Origin: Undaria pinnatifida
Taxonomy: Eukaryota > Sar > Phaeophyceae > Laminariales > Alariaceae
NCBI GenBank assembly: GCA_012845835.1
Contig: JABAKD010000004.1
Coordinates: forward strand, 8,824,232 to 8,888,231
Direction of reading: 5' to 3'
DNA: 64,000 nt
Each line of letters starts with the position of its first letter. The first letter of the stretch is position 1. Below, piece after piece: positions 6,996-62,404 of the stretch. Below the pieces are notes generated by a model. That model saw only the letters and a list, made by a program, of their open reading frames with translations, did not search any database and had not been told where the DNA came from. A program made the translations under genes and the position numbers.

Positions 6996-7145
6996 TGTGG
7001 GGGCTGTAGAGCAACGATTGCTCGGGGGCATCGAGTGGTGGAGTTGCCCTGTGGACGTCAACATGCAATGCATGCGCGGTGCGTGGTGAATGCGGTCAGA
7101 CGAGGTGGGGCGCAGGCGCCCCTTCTCTGCGGAACAAGAGGATGC
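6996..7145 (+). pseudogene. RING-H2-like zinc finger of the retroelement
   Basis: Within an open frame at 6735-7415 the cysteines and histidines fall as C-x2-C-x14-C-x3-H-x2-H-x2-C-x15-C-x4-C (residues 88, 91, 106, 110, 113, 116, 132, 137 from the ATG at 6735). This is the C3H2C3 order of RING-H2 fingers, except that the last pair is spaced by four residues rather than two. It precedes the RT domain in the same element. In a live element it could act as a ubiquitin ligase or nucleic-acid-binding module; here it sits in a broken element. Confidence 0.6.
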
Positions 7146-7925
7146 ACGGTCCGCCTTGGAAGACGGGAAGCAATAGAAGCGGCAGTTCAGGCCGACCCTG
7201 GACTACGCGTGACGGCAGCGGGACTCGGGGGGAGATCTGACGATGGCAAGGAAGAGCGCCGGGATGGCCTCTGCTATCCCTGGAAACAAAACACATTGGG
7301 GATTGCAGGACCGCTCGATGATGTCTCTCTTGAGGACCTCCAACAACGCTTCGTCACTCGAAGTGCAGCCAAGGCTGGCTACTGCCCAAGCCAAGCTTAT
7401 CACCCATGTGCTTGACCTCCTCAATCACGCCTGGGGAAAGCATCGCCAATCCACACAATCGGAGACGCCGCAATCACTCCTGAGGTCAATCAAGTTGTGA
7501 TACATCCTCCCAGCTCTACTGCACTCGCAGCATGGCCGAAAGAAACAGCGAGAGAAGTTTTCGTCTGCCGAGCGCGGTGACCTCACCCTTCTGCTCCCGT
7601 GGTTAATGGAGTATATCCGTCGAACATCGACGAGGCAAATCGGCCAAGCCCGCGAAGAGGCGGACGACGCTGATATGTTTAAGAGGCCATCATGAGCATG
7701 CCGCCATCGAGGGGGGTGACTGTGGCAGCAAGCAGCCTCCTCGCGGAACCGCGCGCGCCGGGGAACGAGGAAACGTGGCAGCGCGTGAAAGCATAGTTCC
7801 CGGAGGAGAACCAGGTCTGCGTCTCTGAAGCTGCAGCGGCAGCGGTGGCAGCAAGTCCCTTCGATCAGGAGGAAGGGAGTGGTCCCAACTGGCGCCGGAG
7901 GAAGAGTTCGACCCACAGGTGCCCC

Positions 7926-8735
7926 TCGATGTCATCAATTCTCGCAACGCGTTATCAGGCGCGGGAAGCGACGGTCTGCGCTTTTCGCACTTGCAGTCAA
8001 TAATCAGGACTGGTTTCGGGCGCAAAACATTCATAGCTGGCATTGAAGCCTTCTGAAGAAGAATCATCGATGATCCAAACGTCTTCCCGCCTGAGTTCTG
8101 GTAGTTCGTCTTGCAATCCAACCTCACTGCCCTGGGTAAAAAATGCCGTCCCGTGTGCGTGGGGATGATGTGGAGGCGCCTTGTTGCGGCCGGGACCATG
8201 CGGCAGTGGCAACCACGGCTGGAGGAGACCAACCACGAAGCGAGACTAATTTGGAGTCGGAGTACGAGGGGGGGTGGAACCGGTATCGCTACGCGTAAGA
8301 GTACATCATGAGGCAAAAAACCGTGTGATCCTCACCGATTGCCCCAACGCCTTCAACACAGTGAATCGGACTGATATGCTAGCGGAGGCAGCCACTTGCG
8401 TGCCGGTGCTTACACCGTTTGTGGCAAAATTTTACGGCGAGATGTCTGCGCCGGTGTTCTTTCAGATGGAATCGGGAGAAAGACGAAAGATCGACTGCTC
8501 CAGCGGGGTACAACAAGGGGATGCCATGGGGGCGGCGTTGTTCTGCATGCCACTCGTGCCGGTGCTGAAGCGGACACGGACGTCGTTCGAGCCAAGAGGT
8601 GTAGAAGCATTCACCTACCTAGATGATATTAGCATCGGATTGATGGAAATCACACCGGATACTCTGGAAGTTGTGTACCCTTTCTCCAGCGTGAGCTGTC
8701 CAACATCGGCATTGCGAGCAACGCGAGCAAAATGA
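7926..8735 (+). pseudogene. reverse transcriptase domain (LINE-type)
   Basis: The fingers region begins with VINSRNALSGAGSDGLRFSH near 7928. The palm follows at 8274-8735 with motif A (LTDCPNAFNTVNR), motif B (SGVQQGDAMGAALF) and motif C (FTYLDDISIG). The catalytic aspartates are present in motif A and in YLDD. In-frame stops upstream (near 8056 and 8101) and a frameshift after 8690 inactivate it. The GVQQGD and YLDD motifs identify a retroelement RT. Confidence 0.88.
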
Positions 8736-8933
8736 TTGCCCTGCCCCCAAAGGAGACGTACCTACGCCGGAACAAAACCGCCCTTCTTGAAGGCATTGAC
8801 GTCAGCATCGCCGAAAGTGGTGGGATTAAGGTGGGGGGGTGCCTGTCGGCACAGATGAGTACGCGAGGGAGCGCGCAATAGAGATAGTCCAAAATGGGGG
8901 AGCGGAGCAACCCGCGCGGATGTTGTCGCGCAC

Positions 8934-10538
8934 ATGCCGGACAAGCAATCAGCCAACCTGATTGCCACCGGCTCTATGGTTCAACGGACCTCCTACCTTG
9001 AACGCGTGATGGACCCAGAACTATCGCTGACTGCATACCGAAAAGCATATGGCAACGCCTTGTGGATGCTGGAGAAACTGCTCGATCTCCCGGGGGCAGC
9101 AGAAAAATCGTCGTTTTTCGCGGACGGGTGCCCGATAAACATGTTGACCCCGCAATCCCATCAACAGGCGCAGGCGAGCCTGTCCACGGGGGCCGGAGGG
9201 TTTGAGCTTTCGTGGGCTGAAGCCCGGAGGATGTCATCATCCGTTGAAAGCTTGGTGGCGACGGTGCCAGAGGTGCTTGCTGATCTGTCCGGTGCAATAG
9301 GGAACAAAGTCCGAAGGGAGCTGCCCGATTCTGGCCTCGTGCGGCGCATCTGGAACAGCGTCAGGGACCTGCGCGATGTGCATGGGGTTTCAGACGAGGC
9401 CATGGCGAACATCGCGCCGGAAAGCTGGCGGGACAGAGCCTTTAGAGCAGGAGAGCATGGTGTCTCCGGGCAATCAGTTGCAGTCGTGTCGCCTACACAC
9501 AAGACCGAAATTGTCAGCTCCAGCAAAGCGCAGCATAGACTAGGTAAACTGGTAACAATAGTACGTTATCAGAGGTACGTCTCTTCGCTGGACCAACTCC
9601 CCGAGACGAGGCCCCAGCGAGACACAGTCGACGCTCAGGGAGAGAAAGAGATGCGAGACTTGGCCAAGGCCCGGCAACGGAGTCAATCGGGATCAGGTAC
9701 TACCGCCTTCCTAAGGGCGGGGCCTGTAGACGCAGCTACAACCATCCCTGCATCAGAGTTCGTGACTGCGGGAAAGAGATTTCTGAGGATAGAGGAATTC
9801 CTGGTGGCGAGGTGCCTATGCTGCGGTGAAGCGGAGGTTAATACGCGGCATGCACGATTGAGTCACCGATCGGGTGCGCAGGTGAACCAGCACCAACCCC
9901 TTGTGCACGCGCTCTCCCGCACCCTTGAGATCATGTCCATCCGCCACCAGGTGGAAAGCGGAGCCCCGTTCCACCCATACAGGGATTTGCAAATGGATAT
10001 CGTGATTGAGGCAAGTGGACTACAAGATGCTACGGCATCGGAGTACCACGCGACAAATCGATACTCCTCGACGTCACGTATGCGAACCCACAAGCGGGAG
10101 TCCACGTGCGGGCAGGCAGCGCGGATCGAAACAGATCAGCGGCTTCCGCTTCCGAGGCGCGCAAGCGCAACCACTACGATGGTCCGAGACAGGTGTCCTT
10201 TGACGTGCGCAGCTACAAACTCGCCACCGTCGCGGTGGAACACTTTGGGAGCCTCGGTAAAGAAAGGAGCGGCCTGATCGATCAGGTGGCGGCAAAACAC
10301 CGTTGGATGAATGGACGCATCGTCCCTAGCGCGGAAAGGCGTGAGCGACGAACGCTTATTCCAAATCATCTCTGTGGCCACTCAGATCATTTCGCGCAGA
10401 GTTCATCGATATAGGCTATCTCTGTGTAATCGTCAGGCGCGAGGGGAAGCGAGGAAGAAGCGGGAGTACTACGGCCACTGGCCTGGGGTGGCAACGTTGA
10501 TGAGGATCATGGTAGACTCTCAGCTAAAACTTATATAG
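8934..10538 (+). pseudogene. post-RT and C-terminal region of the retroelement
   Basis: An open frame at 8934-10277 continues the polyprotein after the palm, with a thumb/connection-like region followed by CLCCGEAEVNTRHARLSH, a C-x2-C-x7-H zinc-knuckle-like motif whose expected later cysteine reads as serine. After about 10045 the conserved sequence moves to another frame (GSADRNRSAASASEARKRNH, from 10106) and after about 10300 to a third (ARKGVSDERLFQIISVATQ, to about 10538). The two shifts are recent enough that all three frames are still readable. Confidence 0.7.
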
Positions 10539-12533: not shown

Positions 12534-13619
12534 TTACACACAGTCTGCACTGACTGTGGAGGACGGGGCGGCCCCCGCCCCCTTCCTCCCCCCTGTCGCC
12601 GCCACCACCGCACCGTTCCCTTGCGCTCCCCCCATTAAACTCGCCAACTCTCCCACAGCCAACCCCCCCCCACGAGCACCGCCCTTCTTCCTCCCGCCAC
12701 CCTTAGGCGACGCCCTCCCTTTCCCCTTTTGCTTGTTTGAGCCAGGATGGCTATTCTTCTTGCTCGAACCAGGGTTTTGATTGATCTTGTTCGAGCTAGG
12801 AGTATGGTTTCCGCCTTTTAAGAGCGTCAGTTTTTTCACCGGGGTGTCACTCTTAGCCTCCCCCGCCCCAACATTTCCTCCGGGCTCCAGGGAATTCCAT
12901 TTCTCGAGGGCGGTTTTACGTTTCTCCAACTCTGCTATCGAGGGTCCCCGGACCAGGCGAACGCCCTTGAGGGAGCCGTACTCCAGCTCTTCTCCGATAC
13001 CGTCGTCAACAACATCGCCGGATCCACCACCTTCGCCACCCTCTCTCCCGTCCGCCACGCCCCCACCCCCTTCCCCCTGCCCCACCCCCTCTGCGGCCGC
13101 GACGGTTTCGGTTTCGGTTTTTTCTTCGGCCACAGCTTCAACTCCCCGAGCAGCAGTAGCAGCATTGGTTTCCCTCCCTTCCTTGCCAACGACGCCAACC
13201 GCACCCCCTTCCACCTCAACCCCGCCACTAACACCGTCACCACCCCCCACCCCGTTACCTCCTCGCGGGCGCGTCTCCTCTTGTAAGGAGGCGGTGGTAC
13301 CAGCAAGAGTCACCAGCCCCGCCCCGTCCACCGCCGCCGCCGCCACCTCCACCGCTTCCACTGCTGCTGTCGCCTCGCCTCCCCCCTTCGTGTCTATGCG
13401 CGGCGCCGCATCCTTTTCAGAGTCCAGCAGAACATTACCACTCGTGGAGGTAACAGTTGTGACACTCGTGTTACCGCCTCCCTGCTCCGCTACGCTCCCG
13501 CCCCCGCCCCCCTCCCCAACATCACCAGCCTCTTGACCCCGTCCGCTGCCGGTACCGAGAGCAAGCAGCTCGGCAGGTACGAGGCGAACCTTGTCGGAAG
13601 ATGGGCAGAAGGACACCAC
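12534..13619 (-). CDS. coilin exon 3 (second half of Tudor-like domain, disordered tail)
   Basis: Starts right after TTTCAACAG with VVSFCPSSDKVRLVPAEL, which completes the Tudor-like fold begun in exon 2 (strand with V-x-L-V-P). The remaining roughly 340 residues are Gly/Ala/Glu/Val rich with one ordered-looking segment (SIAELEKRKTALEKWNSLEP, likely helix) and a basic Lys/Gly tail (KGKGRASPKGGGRKKGGARG) before TAA. The low-complexity tail has no family counterpart that I know. Confidence 0.72.
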   Translation of the reverse strand: MVSFCPSSDKVRLVPAELLALGTGSGRGQEAGDVGEGGGGGSVAEQGGGNTSVTTVTSTSGNVLLDSEKDAAPRIDTKGGGEATAAVEAVEVAAAAVDGAGLVTLAGTTASLQEETRPRGGNGVGGGDGVSGGVEVEGGAVGVVGKEGRETNAATAARGVEAVAEEKTETETVAAAEGVGQGEGGGGVADGREGGEGGGSGDVVDDGIGEELEYGSLKGVRLVRGPSIAELEKRKTALEKWNSLEPGGNVGAGEAKSDTPVKKLTLLKGGNHTPSSNKINQNPGSSKKNSHPGSNKQKGKGRASPKGGGRKKGGARGGGLAVGELASLMGGAQGNGAVVAATGGRKGAGAAPSSTVSADCV

Positions 13620-16600
13620 CTGTTGAAACAGGTCGTTGGGGTGGGGTGGGGTGGGGTGGGGGGGAGGGGGTTGGGGGCGGGGGGGGTTGCTTTGTTTCCG
13701 TTGGTTAGACTGATTTAATGCTGGGTTGGGTTGGGCTGGGTTGGATTGGGCTGGGTTCGGTCTCGTTCAGTTCTGTTCGGTTCTATTCATTTTCGATGGC
13801 TCATTTTTCACGGTTTGCATTATTCACGTATAGTACACGTACCGGCAGGCATGTAGATATGGAGCATTGCATCCCTGAAACGAACCAACAATCAATGAAA
13901 CCGCCTCGTCAACAACCCCCACCCTAACGACGAGCTGCCAACAACGACGGAAGCAACCAAATCGCATACTGGTACCAACCAGGTTGATCTCTTCGGGGTA
14001 CGCCCGCCACGATAAAGGTGAACCACATTTTGGCAAAAACATATTCCGAACGACGGAGCTACTAACCCCAAATCCTTCGTGACGCCATTCTGGTTTTGCA
14101 GTCTGAATATTTTATACGTCTTGGCCATGGGGTTTGGTCATCGGGTTGAGTTTAGTCAACATAAGCTTTTGCCTCAGAAACAAATAAGAGCTCCTTAAGC
14201 GAGGAGCCCGAAAAGAAGAAAAAAAAAATGTGCACTTCTGCCCAATATTCATACGTAGCATGTTTCGGGACTTGACCCCTTTTGATGCCCGAGTATAGCG
14301 ACCAAAACAAAACGACGATTGCGGGAATTTCAAGGGTTTACCAATAGCGTGAGGGCGCAGCAGTACACGAGTAGGATGATGCGGCGCTAGTCCCGTGCGA
14401 GAGTCTTTGCATTGTTGGCGTCGCAGTTCGGACAACATTTTTTTTTACATCAATGCCGGCCGATGCCTTGGAGCGGCCAATCTTCGTCGCAATGTTTTCC
14501 CTCTGCAGTCTCAAAAGGGGTGAACACGGGGCAAAATAAACTAACTAGTAAATACGATCACAGCTAAGCAGCTTACTGCGATCATAGCATGGGCGACACG
14601 ACCCAACGCGGCGCGCTGGGATGGGAGTATTCAACAGAATAGGGCATATTATTCACACTTCCGGCAATTCACGACTCATAGATGATCTAGATAATCACCA
14701 AGACATCCTATAGCTGCCGTTCTGAGAAGTTCTGCAAGGACCTGTGTATGTTGAGCACAGATCCAACCCAGGAAGCAGCATGTGTCAGACCACGCAGATC
14801 GTACGGGCTCCGCCCGGCAACATGAGCTAGACCACACAAATCTTCCCTGGCAGGTCTAGATAATCAGGCGGGGATCGGTGATCTGCCCGACGCGTGCATG
14901 TGTTTACACTTGTAAAGGGGTGACGAGCTATCTGAGGGGGCAAGAGCAAAACCACGGGCAAGCGCGAAATGATACCATGGTACAAAACAACAACACACAT
15001 TCCGAGCTCCTGACGCATGTCACAAGGCAAGGGCACGCAAGGGCACGGTAGGGGGGGAGGAGGGGTGTACTCCGTTTGTGCATGGCCGTAGTCGTACGAC
15101 CGACGCGTGCTACGATTGAGGTGCACCACTTTTCTTTCTAACACGCCATTTTTTTTTCATGATTCTCGTTGTGTACCTAGGCGATGGGGGTTTTCGCGCG
15201 GTAGCGGTTTTATTTTTCTCCAAATCGGTTTTCGGGAGGGGTCTTAAGTTTCCGACGATTTTGGGTTAAGGAGCCCCCCGTCATTCAGAAACAATTGCAG
15301 ACGAAAATCGCTACCTCTCTCCTAGCATGCGTCGACAATAGACCCTCGCATCCCTACTATGCCGGGACGGAGCACGTCGGGTTTTCACCAACCAACCAGG
15401 CATTGCTTGCACCAAGCGCGAAGCGCCGTGGGGTGTTCGGCGAGTCGCGTGAAGGGTAAACTGCATCCTTCCAAGAACCGTCCGTAAGACGGACTTCGGC
15501 ACCTCGTGCCTACCTTCTTGCTTATGGATGACACCTCCAATGAGTTACTTCGTGTTCTGGTGTGGCCACTCCAGAGACAGGGTGGCCACAGCAGGGGGGT
15601 CACTTTTGGGACCTGTCGTTGGAGTGCTTCGGGGGTTACTCGCTGCCTCCGGGGTCACTCGCGCGAGTAACCGACCCCCCCGGGACCGACCCCCCCATTC
15701 TTTCGCGGTCTTTAGCTTTAGCTCTCGTGTTGTTGTTTTCATTCTGCGATAATAATCCGCTACGGAACGTTAAGCTACGCTTCGCCAAAAACATCGCCTG
15801 GAGTATTTTCGTCAGCGAGGTACAGAGTCAACCGTCCGAGTGGATCGATACCGATAGTGAAAATAGAGGGTACCTCCCTTACCGCAGCCTTGGCCACGAT
15901 GTAGGGGCGAGGAGTGGCACTTAGTCACCCTGACATTTTTTTTGTGTCGAAACCTCTCAGCCGTAATGCTACCTATCCACCATCTTCGAATCCGACATCT
16001 GTTTCGTTTTTTCGTTAGAAGGCTATCCCATGGGACTGTGTTTCGGCCTCACGATAGTGCGATTCTTTTCCCGAAGTCGATTGTTGCGTGTGGGCGTATG
16101 GAGCCCCTCAACAAGGGGCGCGTGTTACGGCTGAAAAAAAACGCGAACGGCGCACGTTCGCACGAAATCGGCTAATAGTGCGAACAGCGCCCGCGAACGG
16201 CGCCCACGAACGGCAACCGCAAAATTTGAACGGGCATCAATGCAGGGGACGGAGCACTATCACCCCCTTCCGGGCCAAGAACGTTAAAAAAAGGGTTTCC
16301 AGTATGTACGGACGCCTTTCCCACCGGGGCCTACTTTTCAAGTCCGGAAACGGCGATAATTCTGCGAACAGCGCGTGGATTCGCGAACGCCAAGATACGT
16401 GTAACGCGGAACACGCATCCTCGCCATCAAGCAAGGAGCCTCAGAATATCACGGACGGCGCCAATTTACAGCCTACGGACTGCGGAACTCAAGCACAGCA
16501 GTCAACACACATTATTGTGATGTTGCGTGCTAGGGTTGAAATGGTTGAAACGGGGTGCTCAATAGACATTATAATTGGTCAACACCTCTGCCCTCATCCC

Positions 16601-19600
16601 GTCCGGACCGGATCCAATTGGGCACCCTGCTCCCACTTAGTAGGTGCACAAGCACAGGGCTGGGGTTGGGGTTAGGGTTAGTGGGATATCGTATGGACTG
16701 CAGTTAAGAGTTGCAGTCCATGGGCTAGAGCTAGTTGCTCTCAATATTTAGGTGCTAGAGCAGTATTCCTGCCATCGCAGCACGCCTCAATGAGGGAAAA
16801 GGGTCACAGCTAAACCGCGGGCAAGCGCGATGATAACACCAAAATAACGCAAAATATTTTGAAAAACTAGAAAAGTCTTACCTCCGCCACCCGGTGGGGG
16901 GAGAGCTCCGGCGTCCACGTCTCCTCGTTGAGAGACAGGATCTGGAACGCCAGCACGTCCCCTACATGAGGACGCATATCAGAGGGGAACTCCTCGTAGC
17001 ACGTGTAACTGCCGCAAAAAGAAAGGCGGGGGGGTGGGGGTGGGGGGGGGGGGGGCACAAGGGTAGGGACGTGAGCAAGTGGATAAGTTTCACGTTATGT
17101 GAGTTTTCATCCTCCTGCGAATGGGTAAAAAACGCACCACACCGGCTGTAAATATAAGCATTGTTGATACACCAATATTGGTACAAACCGGTGCTATTAT
17201 GCTAGCTCAGAGTGGTACCTGATGATTGTCCATTCTACGACTAAAAAAAAATATCCCACACGGATTCCCAGTTCCGAGCAGAATGATCCAAAAAACATGG
17301 GTGAAGTTCTAAGGGGTGTTGAAACGTAAGAAAAATCCTCACCATATGGTAGGTGCAAGTAGGGCAATCATGACAGAAAAAGGTACAACTACTGTAGCAA
17401 AATTCGATGAAAATCGACGAGCACTAACAGCTGAAAAGTGGGAATGCTGAACCCTATTCGCGATAAAAATGAAAGCACGTACGTACCGCGGGGGGAAGGG
17501 AAGACACCTCTGCGACCACGGCTTGTTTGGCTTGTCCAGCAGGTCGCTGAGGGTAAAATATCTTACGGGTTGAGAGCTGGAAACTAAAAGCGATGGTTTA
17601 AAAAAAAAAAAAACGATACCTGTCTGTTTTGACTCCAAGATAGGTATCACGCATACATCCCACATTCAAGTAAAACATACCTGGTACCTGGTACACCACA
17701 CACCATACATACGAATGGCCGAACAGACATCGTGCCTGTTTCTTGGTGAACAGACCCAGGTACACCTGTATATACGGCCATTCCGTCTGGGTTTCAATTG
17801 TTTTGAGTTGTAGTCTCAGGCTTAATCACTTGCCTACAGTGCGCCGTTTGTTTCACTGCTGAACTGCTATCAAGAGTTATGTTTAATTCTTTCGATTCTC
17901 CAGCCTCTTCCTCTACTATTTCATGTTTTCTCACTACTCAACCATTGTCTATGATATGTGATATTATAAAAAAATTAAAATGCACTCCAGCTGTGAGATT
18001 GAATATTTTGTCGAAACTTATCTTTGCAAGCTGTGTGTGATACTCCGATCGCGCGTATAACGGGTTGTGTGTCCTCATTAAGGATGTAGGTCGGCGACTC
18101 CCCTTGCAACTACAGTGTAGCTATCAGGGTCAACAGGGTGATGTTAGGCAGTCTGTGCTCGGAAACTACAAAACCTGTTTCTGAGGGGAACAAAATCTGA
18201 CAGCTGTGGAAGGAAATGCATCAGTTTATCAAGTGAATCCTGTAAGTCGAATAACCGGCAAGGGGAGGGCGGAGATTTCAAGGATGTGGGGGCCTGTGAT
18301 ATAGGTAGATACTGCATGTGAGTCATATGATACGTCACAAGGGAACAGGAACAACCACTCGGAAAAAAGACGCGATTACTGCGAAACACACTTCAGGAGA
18401 ACTCTGCTGCAGGCATGTGGTTTAGGCCAACCGTACGAAGTTCGAAGGGCTGGTGGCGTGAGCTTTTTACTTGGTCTCGGGATGTAACCTTTTTTTTTAC
18501 TCCAAGTGGAACAGGTGTACCTGTTTCGGTCATTGCCCTTCTAAGCTCATCAGAATTCCGAATATGTGCCTTGTGTCAACTTAACTCGGTTGCACGGTAC
18601 AACAGTGCTGCTGTAGCGACGGCAGCGCAAGGACAAAAGTCCAGCAACAGAGTTCACGCGGGAGGAGGAAAAAGGCCTTCCAAGGATACAGCGCCGGGCG
18701 TCCTTGGAGGTCAAGTGTGAACGCGGGGTTGACGGTGCACGCGACCGAGCTAATCGATACCATGTAGTCAACCATCATATACCCGCGTCCAAACTCCTTC
18801 AAACTCGTTTGCGAGTTATCTTTCATGTCCGGGAGAGGGTTACCGGAGCTCCTCGGGGCCGTAGAATTCTTACCATGCGAAGAAAGAAAACATGTACGAG
18901 CAACTTGCGTATAGAAATCCGTTGCGTCTCCTCTTTTTGGGATTCCAGAGATAGCTATGTTATTAATACCCAGCATCGTCCCCGTGGGCCTGTGCGATAG
19001 AAACGCCAACCAAAAGACAGCGAGAACCTTTTCGAGCTATGCAATATATTTCTTCGGTCTTGTCAATCGACTACTGATGACGCGAGCGCGCGGCCGTACA
19101 CGTAGTCCGATGTTGCCTGCGCCCACACCGTACAGCTCCTCGCGTTGTAGCATTGCCGTACGCGACAGCACTTGAAGAATTTGGCAGCTAAGAACCTCAG
19201 GCTCAAATTTTAGACGAAAAATAGAACATGGCATTTTTCGTACCGAAAAAGTGTAAAACACACCCTACCCTGCCTTGACCTAGAATGACAGTCTGGCCAG
19301 AAACACTATTAATAGCTTCTTAAGTGGACCAGTGCTACATACTGCTGTAGTATTAACAGTCCAGTTCTGCAAAAAATATGTCGTTCCCCAACCCAAGCAA
19401 GCAGTGGACGACGCTAACTCACCTGCTAAGACAAAGACAGCCTTTTCTGTTACACTTAACTTCTGTCGGACGACGATCCTCGATTACCCCAAAAAACTAC
19501 CCAAAATCATGGGAAAATGCGATTGGCCTTACTCGTTGTACCTAGGGCATGGGATTGTTCGTTGCGTTGAACTTAGCGTTAAACTTTCATACTTTCCAGG

Positions 19601-22600
19601 GCATTTCACGGGTCGGATCACTTCTCGCGGGTCGCATCGAGTCAGGGTGATTCCTACTCGCCCCGACCCGCCCCGACCCGACCCGACCCGACCCGACACA
19701 ACCCACCCCGCGATATTCCGAACACCTTCTGACCCGACCCGACTTGACCCGCAAGCTTTTGAAGCCCTCCTGACCCGACCCGAAGGCCGGATCATGCATG
19801 ACCAATCGTGCATGACCCGATCCGTGGAAAGCTATTTTTGTCTAAATCAATTTGTGGTCGAGGGGCAGAACCGCCTGAAGCAAAAAAGGGTTAGGAAAAC
19901 CATTTACGATCAGCTCGTAGATGCACCGGCTACCGTATCTTGCGTCTGAACAAAAGCTCTAACTTTTCGTCGTCGCTTTTCTGCTTCAAAGTTCCATGCT
20001 ACCGTAGAGGTGCACCATTTTGTTTTCCGAGGCTCGTAACCACTTCAGGAGAAGCTCTGCACCTCTCCCAAAATCCGATGACGCGTGCTACGAAAGAGGT
20101 ATACCTTTTTTTGGCGAAAAAAATTCTGAATGACGGGGCTCCTTCACCCAAAATCGTTGGAAACTGGCCATTTTTTTCCTTGATTCTCGTCGTGTACCTA
20201 TGGCCATGGGGTTTTTCATCCGGCATGAGTTTTTATTCTTCTCCAAAATCAGTTTTTGGGTTAAAAATGACATGTCTTAAGCTCCCAAATTGAGGAAACC
20301 TCAGAAAAAAGTGGTGCACCTCTATCGTAGCACGCTTCGCGTCCGATATGGGGGGGAAAATACCTGGTAAGTGCTACCCGATGGACAATCCCATGGCCTA
20401 CTGTAGGTCTTCAACTGCTGCACTGCTGCATACTGATTTTGTGGCAGGCGAGGCTGAGCGGCTGCTTGTGCAAAAACACAGCCCCACCGCTCTTCTTGAT
20501 CGCCTTGTTGCGCACAAGGCAGCACACACTCCCACGTACAGAAACGCACACGCATGTATACACAGAGACGCACAGAAGCACCGTCCGCCGTTGTATGCTT
20601 CGTATACCTGGTATGAGATCCGACGATGTGTGTTTTGACTTGTTGCGTTGGACGTGTTCATGTTGTGGTTCGATCCCATTGCGCTACACACCAGCCACAC
20701 ACACATAAGGAGCACCGTCGTTCTGAAAACGCTACAGCCAAAAAGTGCTGCCTCTGTGGTATTACGCGCCTGGTTTAACCTTATGGGCATAATTCGACGT
20801 ATACACATAAACAAGGGTCCGTCGGGGCCTCCATGATAGTTGCGCAAAAAGGACGTGGCTAAGAGAAGGGGAAGGTTATGGACGGTACCAAGAGGCTGAG
20901 GTGCTCCACGTATTTGAAACATATGCCATTGAAAATTGTGGGTTTTGTCGGGAGGGAGTGGTTTCACGCACAGGAATATGTGAAGGTAGGTGTTGGTGCG
21001 CTGCATAAAGGAATTGGAAAGACGAAACAAGACGCAAAGAAGGAGGTTGTGTATAGTAGAGAGAACTGCGGTGTTGTGGATAGGCGAGCCGCCGGCCACT
21101 AAGCACCCACCACCCACCCACCGACCAACACACCACCACAGCAGTATATAACAGCAGTGGAGCAGTACGTACCAACCAATCCACAACAGCAGCGCAGCAG
21201 TACGGCAGTACCCACCGCGGCACACCTGGAGTACGCCAGGGGCTGGGTGGGATTTGCACTTTCTTACGATCCTCCACCTTCCGGGGGAGAGCGCGAGCCG
21301 TCCCCAAGAGAGGCTTTTCATGCCTCCCGCTAGTTGGGACTCCTCGGAAGTTGTGTCACCGAGGACACCGAGGGCTGATGCGTGGGGCAGGCGTGGCACG
21401 GGCGTGCGGTCGCTAAGGGCTGGGTGGCGAGCGGTAGAGCGGAGAGCTGTAAGTGTACTGTTTTGAAAGTAGGGCGAATTGTCCCGCTTGCACGGGAGCG
21501 TTCACACATAATATTAGTCAGACATAATACAGAGAACCAAACGTAAGAAGTAGGGATCTTACCGGCCGCCACCACTATATTATAAAAATTAAAATACACT
21601 CCAGCTGTGAGATCGAAGATTTCGTCGAAGCTCATCTTTGCAAGCTGTGTGTGATACTCCGATCGCGCGCATTACGAGTTGTGTGTCCTCATTAAGGATA
21701 TAGGTCGGCGACTCCCCTTACAACTACAGTGTAGCTAGCACCACTATATATAGTGAAGGCAAGGGTCACGCAGTTACTAAAAACGGCGTATATAGCCTAG
21801 GGTCACGGAGCGCGCTTGTCGTGCCTAGTATGGCGTATATTATTAATAGCTCGATTCGGACATTTAATGTGCCATCGACTTATGCCACTTTAGAGGTGCA
21901 CCATGTGTGTGTTCTGAGGCTAATAACCACTTGAGGAGCTCTATATACCTCGTAGGCAAAAACTAATTTGGAAAAAAAAATGCAACTGCAAACCAACGCA
22001 CAATCGCACGGCCTGGGCATACAAAAAAAAATCAGACTGTAACAAAACAAAAACGACGAAATTCCGACGATTTTGGGTCAAGGATGGTTAAGGAGGCCCC
22101 GCCATTCCAGAAAATATTTCGGCAAAAGTGCTACCCCTGTCGTAGCGTCCATCCCCAGGTTAGGCAAACCCAGGCTGCCTTCGCGCGATTGTTGCTGTGA
22201 TTCCGTCCATGGTGTCCTCGGAAGCGAACCGAAAAACAAAATGTTCGTGGCATAAAGCCAGGCGGCATTCTCGCTCAACTGTCAATAGCCAGCCAATGGG
22301 ACTGCAAGTGGTCTCCGGAGAACAATCATTTAGGAAAATTATTCCGCATGCGTCAGCTGCGAGTTCGATCGAATTAGGGTTGATACTCATATTTGCAAGC
22401 TGCGTGATACACCGGCCCCTCTTTTTTCCAGATTTGTGTCACGCAGGAGCCAATATCAACGAAAAAAAAGAGGTGACCACTTCAGCTCTTACACTATACA
22501 AAACTCGAAGAAAATCGACGAGCATAATTGAATGAAAAGTGCGAATGCCCAACCCTGTGTGCGATAAAAATCAAGGCAAGTACTGGGCGGGGGGGGGGGC

Positions 22601-25600
22601 GAGAAGGGAAGACAACTGTGACCACTGCTTGTCCAGAAGGTCGCTTGCGGGTAAAAGCTCCTAGGAAATTGAGCTGGAGAGCAAAACTATTGATGATTAA
22701 CAACTAAAAAAACAAAATCCGAACTCTGAAAATGGTGGATAACCGGGGTTCGATGTGAAAACGATCGACGTGTGCTAGCTAGCTACGAAAGGGGTTCGCA
22801 ATGTTGGGGCAAAACCCGTTATTTCTGACGGGGCGGGCTCCTCAAGCAAGGAACTACCCAAATAGCGTTGAAAACTGTTTCGTGCTTTAAAAACTATTAG
22901 CATGTCGGACAGGTCACCGATGATCTCGATCTTTCAGGGAAGATCTGTGTGGTCTGTGTGATCTAGCTCATGTTACCGGGTGGGAGACGTACAGTCTGCA
23001 TGATCTAGCACATGCTTCCTAGATTAGATATGTACTCAATATGTATACATAGCTCCTGCACATTATCTCACATGAGATACAAAATTTGCTCTCGATGATC
23101 TAAATGGTCTATATGATCTACGTGATCTACATGATCTAGATCGTCAATGTCGGAGGTGTGAAATCATTTGTTGTATACAAACACGCTTCCTCTTCGGGAT
23201 AGATGCGGTTGCATTGAAATCTCGGGGCTGTCGAAAGTCGAACAGAGGAGAAAACACTCATGAAAAACTACAGGGAAAAAGGAGAAGCCATCATCAGAGC
23301 GCAAGTAACCGGGCGAGTAGCATCGACCATTCCGAACGGGAACGAGTTCATCGATGAAGTTTAGTAGTCTACGCCCGTCCTACAATACGTGCATAGTCCA
23401 TGGGAATGCTCATCCGGTTGCACTGCTTCGTTTTTATCAAAATCAAGTTTTGGGTGGGCTATAGAGCTCTTCAAGCAAGAAAAGAGCCGAAGAAAAACTA
23501 GGTGCACCCGCCACTACTGAAGCACGCGTCCGTCCAAAACCTCCGGATGAAAAAAGCTATCCGTGTTTTTCACGGACCCGGTCGGCTTTCGCGGTTCGGG
23601 TCGGGTCATGATGACCCAGATCTGACCTGACCCAACCCGTAATATCTGAAAACCTCCTGAACCGACCAGACCCGCCCTGCGAAACCTCCTGTCCCGGTCC
23701 GCGGGTCGGGTCATGACCCCTGAATAGCCCTGAAAAGCACAGGGACCGTTTTGGGGTATGAACATGTCTACCAAGCGGTCATTTTCGTCCAGATTGGTGC
23801 ATGATAGCACTACTTAAAATACGGCAGGACGCGACAAAAAAAACTCACCTTGTGCTTCCATCGCCAGCCCCATCGGCCGACGCGCCCTGCTTCCTGTCCA
23901 TGGAGGCGATCACGGCATAGTCCTTTTTCCAGCCCCCCTTCCCCCTCTTGCTCGCCCCTTCGCCCCCCCCTCCCCTTTTCTCCAACCCAGAAGAGCCGCC
24001 TCCAGTGCTATGTCGCTGCCCGTTCCCATTACCATAGCCTCCACCAGCAAACCCGACACCCCCCGTCATCCCGTACCCCCCGCGCCCTATGCCTCTGCCT
24101 GGTCCGAAAACGCCCGCCCGAACAGAACTCCGTCCGGTGGTGCCTATCTCACCCGCCGCCTCCGTGCGCCCTCCCCTACTAGCGTCTTCTCCACACCTCT
24201 TCTCCTCTTCTTCCGGGACGTTCCGCTTAGATCCATCCCCACCACGCCCTCCTGTTCCTGCTCCTTCTCCCGCCGGAGTCAATTCCGACGTGGCCTTGAG
24301 TTGCCCCACAATTCTTCCCAGCGGCCCGCCCCAGCATGGCCGACCCGCGGGAACGGCGACATGCCCTCGCCCCCCCGCCCCTCTACCTAAGGGTACCAAG
24401 TTCGGGGTGGTCGAATTGTTAGCGCCGCCGTGCGATGCGGATGCAGCGGGATAAATCGCCCCCCTTCCCCGACCGGCGCTGTTGCGGCTGCTGGAAACGG
24501 TCTCGGCGTGTTTTGGGGTATTCTTCGCGGAGTTTTCGTCCTCTTCTTCCCCGGAGGAGGAAGAAGAGGACGACGAGGAGGAAGATGACGACGAGGAGGA
24601 GGAAGAAGATGACGACGAGGAGGAGGAGGAAGATGACGAGGAGGAGGAAGATGACGACGAGGACGAGGAGGACGAGGCGTTGGCAGCGGCCCCACCCCCT
24701 TTCCCCTGTCCGCCGTCGTTCGAGGGGGTCGGAATCGGGTTCTTCTTTTTCTTCTTCCTCTTCGTCGACGACATTGCGACAGCTTCCTCTTCCTGTTCGT
24801 CGCCGCCCGCAGTGCCACGTTTTCGGCTCGCCTTGCTGGAAGTGGAAGCGTCGCCCTTACCCTTACCCTTACCCTTACCCTTGTCCTTTCCACCACCGCC
24901 ACCGCCGCCTGTGTTGACAGACCGGTCGCTCTTGTCCCCGATCTTGTTTAGGGGCAACGCTTGTTTCTTATGTTTCTTTATCGCAGCCGCCGGAACTTTC
25001 TCGGAAGGCGAAGAATCTTCCGAAGAAGAAGATTCTTCGTCGGAAGATGAGGACTCTTCTCCGTCGGAAGATGAGGAATCTTCTCCGTCGGAAGATGAGG
25101 AATCTTCTGACGACGAAGAACTGTCTTCTGAAGATGAGGAAGAATCGCTCTTCGCAGCAGCAGCAGCAGCAGCAGCAGCAGCCGCCGCAGCAGCAGCAGT
25201 AGCAGCCGTGGCCTTAGCAGCGGTGGCAGCGGCAGTAGCGGCAGCAGCGTCCGATTTAGCAGCCCCCGCCCCCTTCCCCTTCACCGACTGTTCGGCAATG
25301 GAAACCCCTGAAGGATTATTACCCTTGTCCCCGGCGGCAGAAACCTTGGTCTTTCTCTTCTTCTTCCTTCGATTCTTCTTTGCGGTGCGCGTTTGCGCCG
25401 GTGCGTTATTAGCAGTCTCCTTAGATGGTTTTTCACTCGCCCTGTCCCCCGGACAGGTCGATTTCGCCCCCTCTTGGGGTTTGCCCATACGAGTGGCACC
25501 AGCGGCACCAGAAGAGGAGGAGGAGGAGGAGTTCGTATTGGAGGATTCCGTAGAGGAGGAGGGGCGGGTGGGTTGGGATTTTTTGCGCCTCTTGTTGGAG

Positions 25601-26361
25601 GCGGGAGCGGCGGCCTCTGCTGACGATGATGGCCGTGGTGGTGGTGGTGGTGGTGGTGGTGGTGGTGGTGGTGGTGGTGGTGGTGATCGCTTCTTACGCT
25701 TGCTTGGCGGAACGGCGGGAGCGTCAGCATCAGCGGTGGCGGTGTCGATGGCAGCAGCGGTGGTTGTAGCAGCGGCAGTTTCAGGAGCAGTTTGCCTTGC
25801 TCGTTTCTTGCCGCCTTTCTTTCCCCTCACAGCGACACCTTCCGCGTCAGAGTCAGCACCGTGGGGCGACGTTATCGCCTCCGTCGCCTTGCTTTGCCCA
25901 TCCGCGACAGCGCTCTTCTTTCTTTGATTCCCACTGCTACTATTACTGCCGTCTCTACCCCCCTGAGTGATGATGTTGCGGTTGCTTCTGCCGTTGCTTC
26001 TAGACCGTGATGTTCGCTCCTGTCTGTCTGCTGCTGCGAGATCGCCACGGCTGCTCCCCTGGAGCTCAAGCGTCACGACATCGGTATCTCGCAGGACGTC
26101 TAAGCTCTCCGTCGGGGGCAAGACAAATCCATCTAGTGTGAGCACGAGCGAACGTCGAGACTTGTTTCTATTGGGGTCCTTGACTTGCCTCGCCAGATGG
26201 TGAGCTAGGTCGCCCACGACTTGCAGCTCCGAAGGTATCAAAATCCAACGCTGGGTGAGGTTTGGGTTAGAGCGCGGGATACACCCAGTAGCTGCTGAGA
26301 ACACCACTCGTATTCTGCGAGGGGGTGCAATGGACGACAGCAGTGGCAGTGCTCTGTCCAT
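12534..26361 (-). CDS. coilin-like Cajal-body scaffold protein (3 exons)
   Basis: Joined from exons 26361-23849, 17008-16882 and 13619-12534, giving 3,726 coding bases (1,241 residues). Both junctions are GT-AG and phase-consistent: exon 1 ends in phase 2 (AAG|GTGAGT), exon 2 starts with the missing base after GCGGCAG and ends in phase 0 (GAG|GTAAGA), exon 3 starts in phase 0 after TTTCAACAG. Protein order: coilin N-terminal domain (residues about 16-100, with RIRVVF and LDGFVLPPTESLDVLRDTD), long basic/Ser/Ala/Pro low-complexity linker, RG-rich segment (GRGRG, GRGAGGRG) and a Tudor-like domain split between exons 2 and 3. That is the known coilin layout. The family organises Cajal bodies for snRNP and snoRNP maturation. 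About twice as long as plant or animal coilins, mostly low complexity. ATG context AAAAACATGG is favourable. Expression is unproven. Confidence 0.8.
14690..14905 (-). repeat. GATC-rich interspersed repeat
   Basis: Reads on the minus strand with GATCTGTG..., GGTCTAGCTCATGTT, GCCGGGCGGAGCCCGTACGA, ATGCTGCTTCCTGGGTT and GTGCTCAACATACACAGG. The same order occurs on the plus strand at 22895-23160 and in looser form at 55570-55990. GATC and CTAGATC words are strongly over-represented. No ORF; class unknown. Confidence 0.5.
15102..15333 (+). mobile_element. MITE copy, internally rearranged
   Basis: Both termini are present (GACGCGTGCTACGATTGAGG and CTACCTCTCTCCTAGCATGCGTC), but the right half is replaced by an inverted left arm: after AGGGGTCTTAAGTTTCC the sequence reads GACGATTTTGGGTTAAGGAG and then CATTCAGAAAC, the reverse complement of the usual left arm. 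This shows that end segments of this family are exchanged or duplicated between copies. Confidence 0.65.
15335..15600 (+). repeat. poly-G-headed family P, partial copy
   Basis: Shares with 46121-46845, 48872-49190, 62405-63050 and, inverted, 60475-60605 the ordered words ACCCTCGCATCCC, GGGACGGAGCACGTCG, CACCAACCAG, TTGCTTGCACCAAGCGCGAA, GCGCCGTGAGGT, TTCGGCGAGTCGC and GGCCACTC.AGAGACAG. The G-rich head of this family is at 15040-15101, separated from the body by the MITE at 15102-15333, so the MITE seems to have inserted into this copy. Confidence 0.6.
16882..17008 (-). CDS. coilin exon 2 (first half of Tudor-like domain)
   Basis: A 127-base exon encoding YTCYEEFPSDMRPHVGDVLA and on to WTPELSPHRVAE. 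The pattern Y-E-x-(F/L)-P ... R-P-x-x-G-D-V-(I/L)-A-F-x-(I/L)-L ... W-T-P-E-L-S-x-(F/H)-R-V is the signature of the coilin C-terminal Tudor-like domain. Acceptor TTTCTTTTTGCGGCAG has a good pyrimidine tract; donor GAG|GTAAGA is consensus. Both phases fit the neighbouring exons exactly. Confidence 0.82.
19595..19840 (+). repeat. GGGTC/GACCC interspersed repeat
   Basis: Built on GACCCGACCC words, with shared framing: GGGCATTTCACGGGTCGG at one end, a GAAGCC/AACCTCCTGACCCGACCC middle and GGATCATGCATGACC or GGGTCATGACCC near the other end. Further copies at 23555-23760, 50105-50335, 54680-54885 and 57985-58145. They share order, not just composition, so this is a dispersed family rather than one expanded microsatellite. 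Confidence 0.6.
20079..20340 (+). mobile_element. MITE, well-preserved full copy
   Basis: Begins ACGCGTGCTACGAAAGAGGT and ends AGTGGTGCACCTCTATCGTAGCACGC, so the inverted ends pair over almost 20 bases. The interior contains all family blocks in order. Lies in coilin intron 1. Confidence 0.78.
21884..22155 (-). mobile_element. MITE copy, inverted orientation
   Basis: Left part reads TTTAGAGGTGCACCATGTGTGTG...GAGGAGCTC (right arm, inverted); right part reads CCGACGATTTTGGGTCAAGG...GCCATTCCAGAAAATATTTC...GTGCTACCCCTGTCGTAGCG (left arm, inverted). Diverged. Confidence 0.6.
22895..23160 (+). repeat. GATC-rich interspersed repeat, second copy
   Basis: Colinear with the minus-strand copy at 14690-14905 (AGGGAAGATCTGTGTGGTCT, CTAGCTCATGTTACCGGGTG, ATGCTTCCTAGATTAGATATGTACTCAATAT). 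Ends in a run of CTACATGATCTA-like words. Confidence 0.5.
23849..26361 (-). CDS. coilin exon 1 (N-terminal domain, linker, RG region)
   Basis: Encodes residues 1 to 837 plus two bases of a split codon. Residues 16-100 match the coilin N-terminal self-association domain. Then follow basic stretches (KRKKR-type, candidate NLS), a polyproline run (from (GGT)n at 25629-25682), polyalanine, alternating Ser/Asp/Glu blocks likely to be CK2 targets, a KGKGKGKGKG stretch made from CCCTTA repeats near 24860, a very long serine run (about 24560-24680), and RG/GGYG motifs. The open frame runs two codons past the donor GTGAGT at 23848-23843 before a TGA, which supports the splice. Repeat slippage probably explains the size. 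Confidence 0.82.
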
Positions 26362-26960
26362 GTTTTTGCGAACCAGGGGGTACGAGGGGGTAGCTCCCTA
26401 GCCCGAACCTAACCTGCAAGCTGCAAGCTCTTGTTTGCGGTCCACAGCGGTCGAGGTTTTCGATAACCTGAAAAGGCATTCATTGCATAGGTCTATATTC
26501 TTTGGTATACTACCACTATATGAAGCGTAAGATTTATTAGACCGTTTCGTTATTGAATAGACGGGCCGACGAGTCGACGAGTTCGTGAGTTGACGAAATC
26601 ATCATACAGGTTCGTTGCTGTCTGTCTTCTGCTACTGTACTCCTTGAGATAACGCCCGGGGTCCGGGTCTCTCACAGACGCATAACCAAAAGCCCCCCAC
26701 ATCCCAGGCTGTTCGGTATCCGGTATCAGATGCTACTTGATCTAAAATCCAAACGGAACCAGTTGCGCCGCAAGGGAGACCTTCGGTCCACCTCAACCCA
26801 GCTCGTACCATGTACAGTACGTGCTGGACTGCCCAACTTCGCGCATAGTGGCGCGCCATGCACATAGCAGCATCCTGGTGGTCCATGACCTGCCGACGGA
26901 ACCACCACCCATGACAGATAATGCCGGTTCTCCGGGTTTAGCAGAAGAAGAAAAGCGTCT
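26362..26960. promoter_or_regulatory. divergent intergenic region between coilin and EF-hand gene
   Basis: About 600 bp separate the coilin ATG (minus) from the first ATG of the long EF-hand-gene open frame (plus). Both upstream regions must therefore share this segment or lie inside it, unless one gene has further 5' exons. A TATA-like CTATATGA occurs near 26515, and ACGAGTCGACGAGTTCGTGAGTTGACGA (26568 on) is a short repeated ACGAGT pattern. No promoter element can be assigned with confidence. Confidence 0.4.
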
Positions 26961-27420
26961 ATGCCGAACCAGTACAGGAGACCAACGACACATGCCAGCA
27001 CCTGGTATGCGGTACAACACACGAACTCCAGCAACACCTGTGCCGTACGCGTACGGCAGACGAGCAATACATACCCTGCACGACGGCAGGCTAGGGACAC
27101 ATATGGCTTAGAGCAGGCCGCCAGCAACTTGGGGTTAGGGTTAGGGTTGGGGTTGGGGATAGGGTCGTATGCCGTACCGCAGACGACGAGCAGCACATCC
27201 TTACCGAGAAGCTCCGAGACCAGTGTCGGTACTATCAAGCAGAAGCATGGCCACCGACAACGCCAACAACCAATCTCTGGCAGAACTAGCTCGGCGGCGC
27301 AGCGGTTGAAAATAAAACGTGCCTATGGTGTACACCAGACCAGCAACACATCCTTGCCGAGCCGATCCTCGATTGGTGTCGGTGCTGGCAAGGGGAAGCA
27401 TAGTCACCACCACCACCACC

Positions 27421-27451
<31 letters not shown>

Positions 27452-29357
27452 GTCAATGTCTGGGAGAAGAAGCTGGGCGGAGCAGTTTCCGGGTGTACGG
27501 ACTCCCAGCCAACGCCATCAACAAGCCTTCGGGAGAAGCTCGGCGCAGCGATTTGAAAGGACACGCGGCGATGTCGCAAACCACAACATCAACACATCCT
27601 TCCCAAGACGATCCGAGACCGCTGTCTGTCTCGCCGAAGAAAAGCATGACCGCCAACAACAGCAGCCGCAATCAACCTCTGGCAGAACAAGCTCAGCGGT
27701 ACAATTTCTTGACGTACGAACGCCCGGCCAACGTCCACAACCAACGAGACCGGTAACGTGCGACCTGAGCGGCGAACGCGGGACCAGCGTTGGCCGACAG
27801 ACAAACGATATGGGCACAATTAGCTCGGCGAGGCAATGTCCTGGGGGACAAACTCCAGACAAACGACGACAACAAGAAAGACCTGTAACCTGGGACCTAA
27901 GGGGCGAACGCGGGGCCACTGACCAAAAGGAAAATGAGAGGGGCAGAATAATAAGCTCGGTCCAGCATTATCCAGGCACACGGACTCCCAACCAATGTTC
28001 GCGACAAGCCTTGGGCAGAATAAGATCAGCGGCTCCGCGATTTCCTGGCTTGCGAACCCCAAACACCCCGCTAATGAACGGTGGTCGTCGAGGTACCCCT
28101 AAGCGAGCGGTTAAACCCCGCCTACCATTTGCTTCTCGCGCGGGAAAAAAACCAAACCTCGGTGGAAACAAGTGGGGAGATTTAGATTCGAAGCACGATT
28201 CTGGGGGGGCGGGGCAAGCCGGACACAGGAGGCAAATCGTCGGCCGGACTAGTAGCAGGACGGGATGGCAGTCTCTGCCTTGCCTATCATCTTCGACGGC
28301 GGCTGGTGGTGTTTTTTCGTTCTATAAGTGCAGTAGTGTCGCTGACTCCGCTTTGGTAGGTTATGACTCTTCTGTTTCTGGCAGCGGAGGACCGGGGTGT
28401 TATTTTCAACGTGATCTCGGGGCCGGAGTTGAGGCAGGTTATTTTTCTTCTTCCGCTAGTCAAGGACCAGAGTTTTCTTGTTCTGCCCAAAGCGAGCTAG
28501 GGGGTGGGGATGATACGTCGTTGCAAGAACACAGCAGCATCAACAGCAACAGCTGCATCAGTAGCGGTAACGAGAACGGCTGTTACCGTGGTGGTGGTGA
28601 CGGTGGTGATGGTATTGGTGATGGTGATGGTGGTGGTGACGATGGTGGTGGTGGTGGTGGTGGTCGTGGGGGTGGTGATGGTGTTGGTGTTGGTGGTGGT
28701 GGTGGTATTGGTGGTGTCGGTGTTTTTAGTGGTGGTGGTGGTGGCGTCGATGTTTGTGTTAGTGGTGTTGACGGAGGTGTTGTTATAGGTGTTGGGAGAG
28801 GTGTTGACGACGTTGGTGGTGTTGATGTTAGTGTCAGTGGTGGTGATGGTGGTGATGTTGAAGGTGGTGGTCGTGGTGGTGTTGGTGTTGGTGATTTTGG
28901 TGTTAGTGATGTTGGTGTTGATGTTGGTGTTGATGTTGGTGCTGGTGGTGTTGGTGTTGGTGTTGGTGGTGTTGTTGTTGGTGGTGGTGGTGGTAGTGGT
29001 GGTGGTGGTGGTGGTGGTTGTGTTGGTGTTGTTGGTGTTGGCGCTGGTGGTGGCGGTGTCGGCGGTGGTGGCGCCCACTGCGGCCGCATCAGCAGCAGCA
29101 GCGGTTCCTCGACCAAAAACAAGGGCTTGATGACCTCCACAAACTTCAGTGGTGTCGACGGAAGCAGTCACAGAAGACCGAGCAAGACCTGGCCTTCTTC
29201 ACGCTCATCACGCTTTCCGCTAACGGAAGAGACACACGACGACTTTGACAGAATGTCGAGGTTAGGCCTGTGGCGGCCCCCACGGTCGTCCAGGACGGGA
29301 GACTCCCCACGGAGCAAGCTGGCGTCTGCTTCAAGAAGGCCCAAGTCTGAGCGCAAG
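26961..29357 (+). CDS. candidate first exon: repetitive disordered N-terminus
   Basis: 799 codons ending at the donor CGCAAG|GTGGGT in phase 0. Residues about 55-68 (LGLGLGLGLGIG) come from TTAGGG-like repeats; residues about 105-385 hold four or five imperfect copies of a module with SGRTSSAxQFPGxRTPxQR, some preceded by His/Gln runs; the stretch encoded at about 28590-29080 is Gly/Val/Asp-rich and derives from a (GGT/GTT) microsatellite; the last about 80 residues are Ser/Arg/Pro rich (SPRSKLASASRRPKSERK). The open length exceeds chance, but repeats inflate it, and the GGT part could be an unrecognised intron. Linking to the next exon rests on matching phase only. Confidence 0.45.
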
Positions 29358-32300
29358 GTGGGTGTCCAATGGCGTCCTTACCCACGGAAAATTCATTCCT
29401 AGACACGTGCAACGGTAAATGTACACTATTTTTTGCTGAGGAGCTCCTAACCTCTCGAGGATCTCTATCAAATACTTCACACACAAAACTTTTGTTTGAG
29501 TAAATCATAAATAGCAATCCGATGGCCTAAACCCATGACCTCGAGGCGTGAAAGAACTGTTCAGATTTTTGCAAAACAAGAATATGGCACATGCCGCCGA
29601 CGAAAGTTTGGGTTACGCCATCCCCCCTTCAGAAAAACATGCGTTACCCCCCCCCCAAAAAAAAATGCTACCTCTGGTGAAACCTCCATCCTCATCGCGG
29701 CGCGAGTCCCTACGATTAGTGATTGAACATTGACGCAAAAATGCTAACAAGTACATATATGTTAAGACCCCCACAACAACGCGATCGAAAAAGTCGGGGA
29801 TGTGCGGCCTTATCAACCGTGTCGTATGACCGCATAGTCCACACTAAGAGTAAAACACGTGCAGGACGTCTGCTAAGATAGGGTTTTTTTGCAATTATTT
29901 TTCGCGAAACAAGAGAAAAAAAAATCGAACCGTGAACGCGGCTCTTTTTTAAGCTTCCAACATCGTCGGAAGGTCAAACATCGTTGTGTTGTTTTGAAAC
30001 AAGATTCGTTTTCACACCTAAGGCCATGGAGGAGTGCCGACCGATCGATCAGTTTTTGGGCGAGGCATAACATGGAGTAAAATCTTTGGCCCACCTCCCC
30101 ATCGTAGCGTGCGTCGTCGATGCATTATAGATGTATCTATATATGCATATGCTTCGAAGTATATATTTATTTGCATCCCATTTGTTATCCTCGTGCACCA
30201 CTCTCGTGCTCCCTCTCCCAGTAGTAACTTAGATCCGGGATCACACAGCGGTTACCTTCTCCCCCCTCCGCACTACGGTAAGTGTCTTCATTTCTATCGC
30301 GAAAATAATTCAGCATGTTTTCTTCCCTCTGGTCGACTCGCGTCGACTTGAAAAATGTAGTTTTTTTTCTCCGACAAGAAGACGCGTTCCACGATAGAGG
30401 CAGCATTTTTTTTTGTATAATACATTTTTTTTCTCCCGTGAGAATGGCGGTGCCGATTTGACCCAAAAATGTCGGATTTTTTTTTCATTCATTTTTTTTA
30501 GCGATATTTTTAATCGAATGCCCCCAGTAGAACATGGGATGCTTTTGATCGGGTTGAAGTACTTCTCATTTATTCTTCCAAATCCGTTCTCTTGGGTGGG
30601 GAATGGAGCTCCTCGCAGAGAGGTAATGAACCTTAGGACACGCACAATGGCGCACTTCTACTTGTAACGATATAAAATGTACGTGTAGTTTCGTTTTCTC
30701 CGATCCACAACTGCTCTTCGTGTCGTGTATAACTTGGCCTCTTCTTCGCCACAAAAACTGCTTGTGTTTAACCAGCGAGGGACCGGCGTGAAGCGCGACT
30801 TCCTGTCGGCCCTTCGGAACCAAATGGGTGAGGATTTGCAAGAGCGGTGGATGAGGCGAAGAGCCCTGCTGAGAAACGACAAGTTCACCGCCGCCCAGCG
30901 GCGGGAGCTGAGGGAGTGGTAAGAGGGGATAAGGAAAGGCACTTTGGCACTCACTCAAGCGCAGCATCTGCGTTAAGATGACGGATAAATACTGAGAAAA
31001 AACGTTCGCAGACACTGATATTTGGCAGGGAGCGGAAAAACCGCTCTCCACTGAAGATAGTGCAGGACTCAGATTGAAGATGGGATACCCCCCCCCCCCC
31101 TCCCAACCAGCGATTTTTTTTCTTCTTTGACGAACGTTTCATGGCTGCTGGTCGACACGGGGAGGGAAGCTACGAAAAGAAGTATCTGTGTCGTGTACTT
31201 TCGTTGTTTGCAAAGGACTAGTAGTGGTACGTTCGAACGATAACATCGAGGTGGATTGGGGCACCGAATTTCAGGAGATACGACCGGGAGCCGGTTTTAA
31301 AACCGGCCATTTCGTTCAAGAAAAGTTTGGGGTGGGACTGCCGTAGAACGGTTCCTCGCCACTTGACGCGTCCTACGACATGATCTGATAGAGGTAGCAG
31401 TTTCGTGTGAAACATTTGTCTGAATGACGGGGCTCCTTGACCCGAAATCGTCGTGAATTATATTAAGGTATTAAGGTATACCTCTTTATGGCGAAAACGG
31501 TTTCTGAATCACGGGGCTCCTTAACCCAGAATCGTCGTAAATTATATTAAGGTGTACCTTTTTTTGGCGAAAACGGTTTCTGAATGACGGGGCTCCTCAA
31601 CCCGAAATCGTCGTAAATTTTATTAAGGTATTAAGGTATACCTCTTTCTGGCGAAAACGGTCTCTGAATCACTGGGCTCCTTAACCCACAATTATCGGAA
31701 TTTTGTTACATTACTCTCGTCGTGCACCTATGTGGACATGGGGATTCTTCATCCGGTTTGTACATGAAAGTTTTATATTTCTCCAAATTCGTTTTGGGGA
31801 GAGGTCTTAAGCTCCCGAAATTGAGGAACACTCAGAAAAAAAGCGGTGCGCCTCCATTGAAGCACGCGACATTTCCAATATACACAAAGTCCAGCCTGGG
31901 GGGCGGGAGACGTGTAAGGTTATAGGTGGGGACACAGAGTGCCCCCTGCAGGTCTGCCAATTGAGCAGGTCCTCGGAGAGTACTCGCTTTCTTTGCCTTC
32001 GTACGAGAGACGTTGCTTTATTCGATTCCACCAGAGCCCCGGATGGTTTCTGAGATCGGAGGCACGTGCCTCCGATCTATTCCCTAACTTTCTTGAATAT
32101 AAAACGCCGACCTTATCATACGAAACCCATCCAAATGATCTCAAATTCGGATAATTACAGGCCTTTCGAGGCCGTTTCTTAACAGACGCTTGCTACACGA
32201 TAGAGGTATATGGTATACCGCTTTTTGGCTTTTTTTCAGGTTGGCGGAGCTTCTTAGCCCAAATCTAGTCGGAACGAAATTCTTTTTTTCCGATTCGTTT

Positions 32301-62331: not shown

Positions 62332-62341
62332 CTAAACGAGA

Positions 62342-62404
62342 GACAGACGGGCGTGAGACGGGCGTGAGACGGGCGTGTCACACGGGCGTGTGGGGTGCGG
62401 GCGT
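62342..62404 (+). repeat. GGGCGTGAGAC short tandem repeat
   Basis: Four to five units of about 11-12 bases (ACGGGCGTGAG) directly upstream (minus sense) of the FNIP exon acceptor. In the transcript it is the C-rich CTCACGCCCGT repeat and could serve as part of the pyrimidine tract. Confidence 0.7.

Follow-up and report, generated by a model that had tools for sequence, protein, structure and literature searches.

A probable coilin gene interrupted by two long introns in the brown alga Undaria pinnatifida

Introduction

Cajal bodies are nuclear compartments scaffolded by the protein coilin. The coilins of plants (Arabidopsis) and animals (p80-coilin) carry a Coilin_N domain and a Tudor_Coilin domain at opposite ends of the protein, with a low-complexity, basic or serine-rich middle and an RG-rich stretch that precedes the Tudor-like domain. 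Human coilin is 576 residues long, according to the passage of PMC9530788 that gives its size. Beyond animals and plants, the fission yeast orthologue Mug174 was found by localisation; the sections of PMC11347179 that introduce it call it weakly homologous, describe N- and C-terminal similarity around a disordered middle, and provide functional data. The same 2024 paper, in its remarks on orthologues, states that unicellular organisms had yielded no reported coilin orthologue before Mug174 (PMC11347179). Cajal bodies are listed for 'all eukaryotes' in PMC9530788, and the relevant passage there compares coilin among five animals only. In the open-access literature we found no paper that combines coilin with Ectocarpus or coilin with the last eukaryotic common ancestor, and by title none of the matches listed dealt with a brown-algal coilin. 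An entry for such a protein may well already exist in protein databases.

Here we describe a locus in Undaria pinnatifida, by taxonomy a stramenopile, that is very probably a nuclear gene for an ordinary Cajal-body coilin. It lies within a window of 64 kb, the whole stretch of DNA that was analysed, which has a G+C content of 50.8%. The gene is a further member of the known coilin family and not a new kind of system. The predicted protein resembles those of plants and animals in the placement of the two domains, the composition of the middle and the position of the RG-rich stretch, in agreement with the domain layout given in the pertinent parts of PMC10542627 and PMC10747631. It differs from them in its length (1241 residues, versus 576 in human coilin), which includes a very long low-complexity linker, in a low-complexity stretch that follows what was matched of the Tudor-like domain, the closing part of which was not recovered, and in two long introns carrying dispersed repeats. 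Like Mug174, it represents a coilin beyond animals and plants with similarity at both termini and a middle that may be disordered; unlike Mug174 as presented in those sections of PMC11347179, it passes both Pfam cut-offs and is predicted from sequence.

Results

Three predicted minus-strand exons join into a continuous 1241-residue frame

Joining the minus-strand segments 26361-23849, 17008-16882 and 13619-12534 yields 3726 bases that encode 1241 residues followed by TAA, with no internal stop. An earlier note on this DNA had proposed three such segments with consensus splice sites and fitting phases. Each segment was found where it had been placed, GT...AG borders are present at both introns, the joined frame stays open, and the motifs that had been cited (LDGFVLPPTES and ...TPELSPHRVAE) occur in the joined translation.

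Exon 1 (23849..26361, minus strand) begins with the ATG at 26361 in the context AACATGG, encodes the N-terminal domain and the long low-complexity linker, and ends before a GTGAGT donor after 23849; its assignment is supported by the open frame and by a Coilin_N score of 44.5 bits for the full exon 1 translation. Intron 1 (17009..23848, minus strand) is 6840 bp long, runs from GTGAGT to GGCAG and is in phase 2. Exon 2 (16882..17008, minus strand) encodes the first half of the Tudor-like domain, which is cut after ...HRVAE by intron 2 (13620..16881, minus strand; 3262 bp, GTAAGA...AACAG, phase 0). Exon 3 (12534..13619, minus strand) continues the Tudor-like domain in its first 17 residues (13619-13569) and then encodes a low-complexity stretch, the C-terminal tail and the TAA stop. 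Translation of the introns as coding read-through was ruled out by stops directly beyond exons 1 and 2: unspliced reading past exon 1 terminates directly after the codon that straddles the exon 1 end, and reading past exon 2 terminates after four residues (VRLF). Both introns, enlarged partly by dispersed repeats, would be removed by ordinary GT-AG splicing.

An 826-residue stop-to-stop frame on the plus strand (26922-29402) is arranged head to head with this gene, at a distance of about 560 bp from the coilin ATG. It includes blocks that are loosely repeated and a long stretch rich in glycine and valine, and it has no Pfam match.

The N-terminal region matches the Coilin_N profile

Whether the first 100 residues match a coilin profile had been set beforehand as the test by which the coilin reading could be refuted. 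These residues alone matched Pfam Coilin_N (PF15862) at 41.9 bits, compared to a curated cut-off of 32.9 bits, with an E value of 1.2e-10 over residues 16-97, the core of the domain (26071..26316, minus strand). The match is independent of the low-complexity tail, because it was obtained with residues 1-100 on their own. A piece comprising residues 1-168 scored 50 bits over residues 16-151, and residues 1-100 in reversed order, used as a control, gave no Pfam match. A search of the 511,146,479-base assembly (68 contigs) for Coilin_N returned one match, this locus, among 44 scored candidates. Prediction of residues 1-114 by single-sequence AlphaFold2 with no relatives gave a mean pLDDT of 40.6 and a pTM of 0.30, which is uninformative either way. 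By the profile evidence, the predicted protein possesses the N-terminal coilin domain, which by family is the self-association domain.

Other searches gave little. NCBIfam returned one match (E 0.16), far below its cut-off, and the sequence search of solved structures returned one non-credible match per domain (E 0.87 and 0.1). No relatives were found among the viral and prokaryote contigs searched, as expected for a eukaryotic gene.

A low-complexity linker with modest RG enrichment

A low-complexity linker some 700 residues long separates the two domains. Residues 111-838 consist to 57% of G, S, A and K and contain four clusters of at least four K/R, and S/D/E runs in the middle of the protein reach up to 41 residues. 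An RG-rich linker had been claimed and is present, with an enrichment that is modest: residues 621-838 contain 10 RG dipeptides against a shuffle mean of 5.65, a count reached by 51 of 2000 shuffles. RG counts elsewhere are as expected (3 in residues 101-620 and 5 in residues 839-1241). The RG-rich segment itself (residues 630-797; 23971..24474, minus strand) precedes the Tudor-like domain and may correspond to the RG box found in animal coilin.

The Tudor-like domain is split between exons 2 and 3

The halves of a Tudor-like domain had been assigned to separate exons, and profile scores support this arrangement. Exon 2 alone matched Pfam Tudor_Coilin (PF23086, cut-off 27 bits) at 31.5 bits over profile positions 12-42 of 105, and exon 3 alone gave no match, whereas exons 2 and 3 joined (71 residues) scored 46.3 bits over positions 12-60 of 105; the domain is thus recognised as Tudor_Coilin and its halves belong together. 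The match crosses the exon 2-3 junction, aligning 50 residues with 49 profile positions. When 451 residues comprising the exon 1 end, exon 2 and the whole of exon 3 were searched, the score was 42 bits.

The specificity of the exon 2-3 join was evaluated with alternative acceptors. There are 244 AGs between 16870 and 12535, exon 3 included, and 111 of them, counting the proposed one, leave at least 30 open codons. Scores were obtained, in each case after joining to exon 2, for the proposed acceptor and for nine chosen by hand from the remaining 110, at sites distributed along this stretch. The proposed exon 3 acceptor gave 45.9 bits, as compared to 29.5, 29.8, 30.5, 31.3, 31.5, 31.6, 32.6, 32.8 and 33.7 bits for the nine others, a difference of 12 bits or more in every case. 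An exon 3 beginning at another acceptor was rejected on these nine hand-picked alternatives, none of which exceeded 33.7 bits.

No counterpart of Tudor_Coilin profile positions 61-105 was accepted by HMMER. The segment EELEYGSLKGVRLVRGPS, further downstream in exon 3, by eye resembles what we take to be the closing strand of plant coilins. As a candidate closing strand it was not supported: it gave no match alone, and placed beside the domain it scored 46.0 bits versus 45.0-45.7 for five other exon 3 pieces. A large insert within the Tudor-like domain is possible, with the closing part not recovered. As judged by the profile, the predicted protein has a coilin-type C-terminal Tudor-like domain, over profile positions 12-60 only. 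The three predicted segments stand out from chance, in that each terminal domain passes its Pfam cut-off on its own and the exon 2-3 join outscores the nine alternatives.

One gene or two

The exon 1-2 splice is based on phase, consensus sites and the immediate stop on read-through. With the exons joined as predicted, the Tudor_Coilin match begins inside exon 2 without reaching exon 1, and the junction therefore lacks direct profile support; the prediction of both domains in one protein comes from a joined frame that is open and in phase, with a profile that does not bridge exons 1 and 2. When the linker was omitted, adding the exon 1 end (GWKKDYAVIASM) moved the start of the match out to profile position 3, and the score rose from 46.3 to 49.4 bits, a weak and uncontrolled effect.

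The 6840-bp length of intron 1, together with a profile match that does not start until residue 10 of exon 2, would be compatible with two adjacent genes: one for a Coilin_N protein ending in or after exon 1, and another, made up of exons 2-3, for a short Tudor_Coilin protein. We regard this arrangement as very unlikely. Exons 1 and 2 have compatible phases, and their join leaves the frame open; the exon 2 frame is open for just 29 codons upstream and contains no methionine there; and exon 2 itself encodes a single methionine, residue 11, which sits at the border of the matched core. The weak, uncontrolled extension of the match by the exon 1 end points in the same direction, and known coilins have both domains.

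A coilin gene with an extra or shifted exon between exons 1 and 2, such that the true protein differs from the exon 1 end to the Tudor-like core, is unlikely. It would be consistent with the low complexity of this region, which is without profile signal, and with the spacing from ...DYAVIASM to MRPHVGD, which in the model exceeds the spacing expected from the profile. However, none of the same-strand frames of at least 100 residues in intron 1 (7 of 7) had a Pfam match above cut-off, a scan that a short low-complexity exon would escape. The evidence favors a single coilin gene: Coilin_N and Tudor_Coilin are both above cut-off, on one strand, in coilin order and within one open 1241-residue frame.

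Repeats are concentrated in the introns

The introns had been described as repeat-filled. Repeats are indeed present in both but cover only part of each: 1716 of the 6840 bases of intron 1 and 660 of the 3262 bases of intron 2 resemble sequence elsewhere in the window, counting copies within the same intron or in the other one. The corresponding counts for the exons are 0 of 127 in exon 2, 0 of 1086 in exon 3 and 144 of 2513 in exon 1, the last all within exon 1 itself, which contains triplet and other short tandem runs. Since copies are located in the introns and none in exons 2 and 3, the proposed exon borders also separate repeat-bearing from repeat-free DNA. The 80-84 bp repeat family of the window has copies at 20080-20165 in intron 1 and at 15249-15333 in intron 2, and intron 2 also holds a copy of a longer dispersed repeat (15334-15580). 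A Pfam scan of 20 of the 21 intron-contained frames of at least 100 residues (all except 21152-21466, plus strand) gave none above cut-off; domains hidden within the introns were rejected, with three sub-threshold matches (13.7-14.6 bits) taken as chance.

The intron repeats, and the tandem runs inside exon 1, could be read as signs of a decayed pseudogene or of faulty assembly in repeat-rich sequence. This is extremely improbable given 1241 stop-free codons, consensus splice sites, two domains that exceed their curated cut-offs and a single Coilin_N locus in the assembly.

Related tandem units of 80-102 bp form arrays at 31419-31692, 38086-39014, 41633-41840 and 51352-52043, and resemble the single copies in both coilin introns. 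The window also contains a 32-bp tandem array (47924-48576) and a hexamer array of CCCTGA (TCAGGG) at 36514-36859, with 57.5 copies, 95% matches and a telomere-like look. A reverse transcriptase fragment at 8250-8735 on the plus strand (RVT_1, 29.9 bits; cut-off 29.6) is probably part of a LINE-type element; the preceding frame (6732-7415) has a RING-like match below cut-off (17.7 versus 27.3 bits), and the frame that follows (8859-10277) has none. On the minus strand, 61494-62738 is an FNIP-repeat/LRR-like open frame (29.6 bits; cut-off 21) of a type that we presume to resemble brown-algal genes. Searches of the window for tRNAs (ARAGORN, bacterial code) and for Rfam RNAs found none.

Discussion

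The domain content of the predicted Undaria protein is that of a coilin, and a role as a Cajal-body scaffold, which follows from the family, is most likely. On the basis of what is established for coilins, the N-terminal domain would self-associate or oligomerise, the linker would bind RNA and RG-binding partner proteins, and the Tudor-like domain would contact snRNPs, such that the protein may scaffold Cajal bodies in which snRNPs mature. The assembly also contains at least 11 U2 snRNA matches, with 46 candidates scored out of 7231, and spliceosomal snRNP clients therefore exist.

The Undaria gene does not contradict what the 2024 paper says, in the part concerned, about unicellular organisms (PMC11347179), because a brown alga is multicellular. 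If the DNA is that of a brown alga, the locus adds a clear two-domain coilin from the stramenopiles. Coilin would then trace back to the ancestor that SAR, plants and opisthokonts share, as by inference would Cajal bodies scaffolded by it, and would not be a trait of animals and plants that otherwise occurs in scattered relatives; we lean toward this view. Coilin is divergent, and a clear case at such a distance from the animal, plant and fungal lineages would help to trace the Cajal-body scaffold back to early eukaryotes. It also offers a specific algal gene for tagging.
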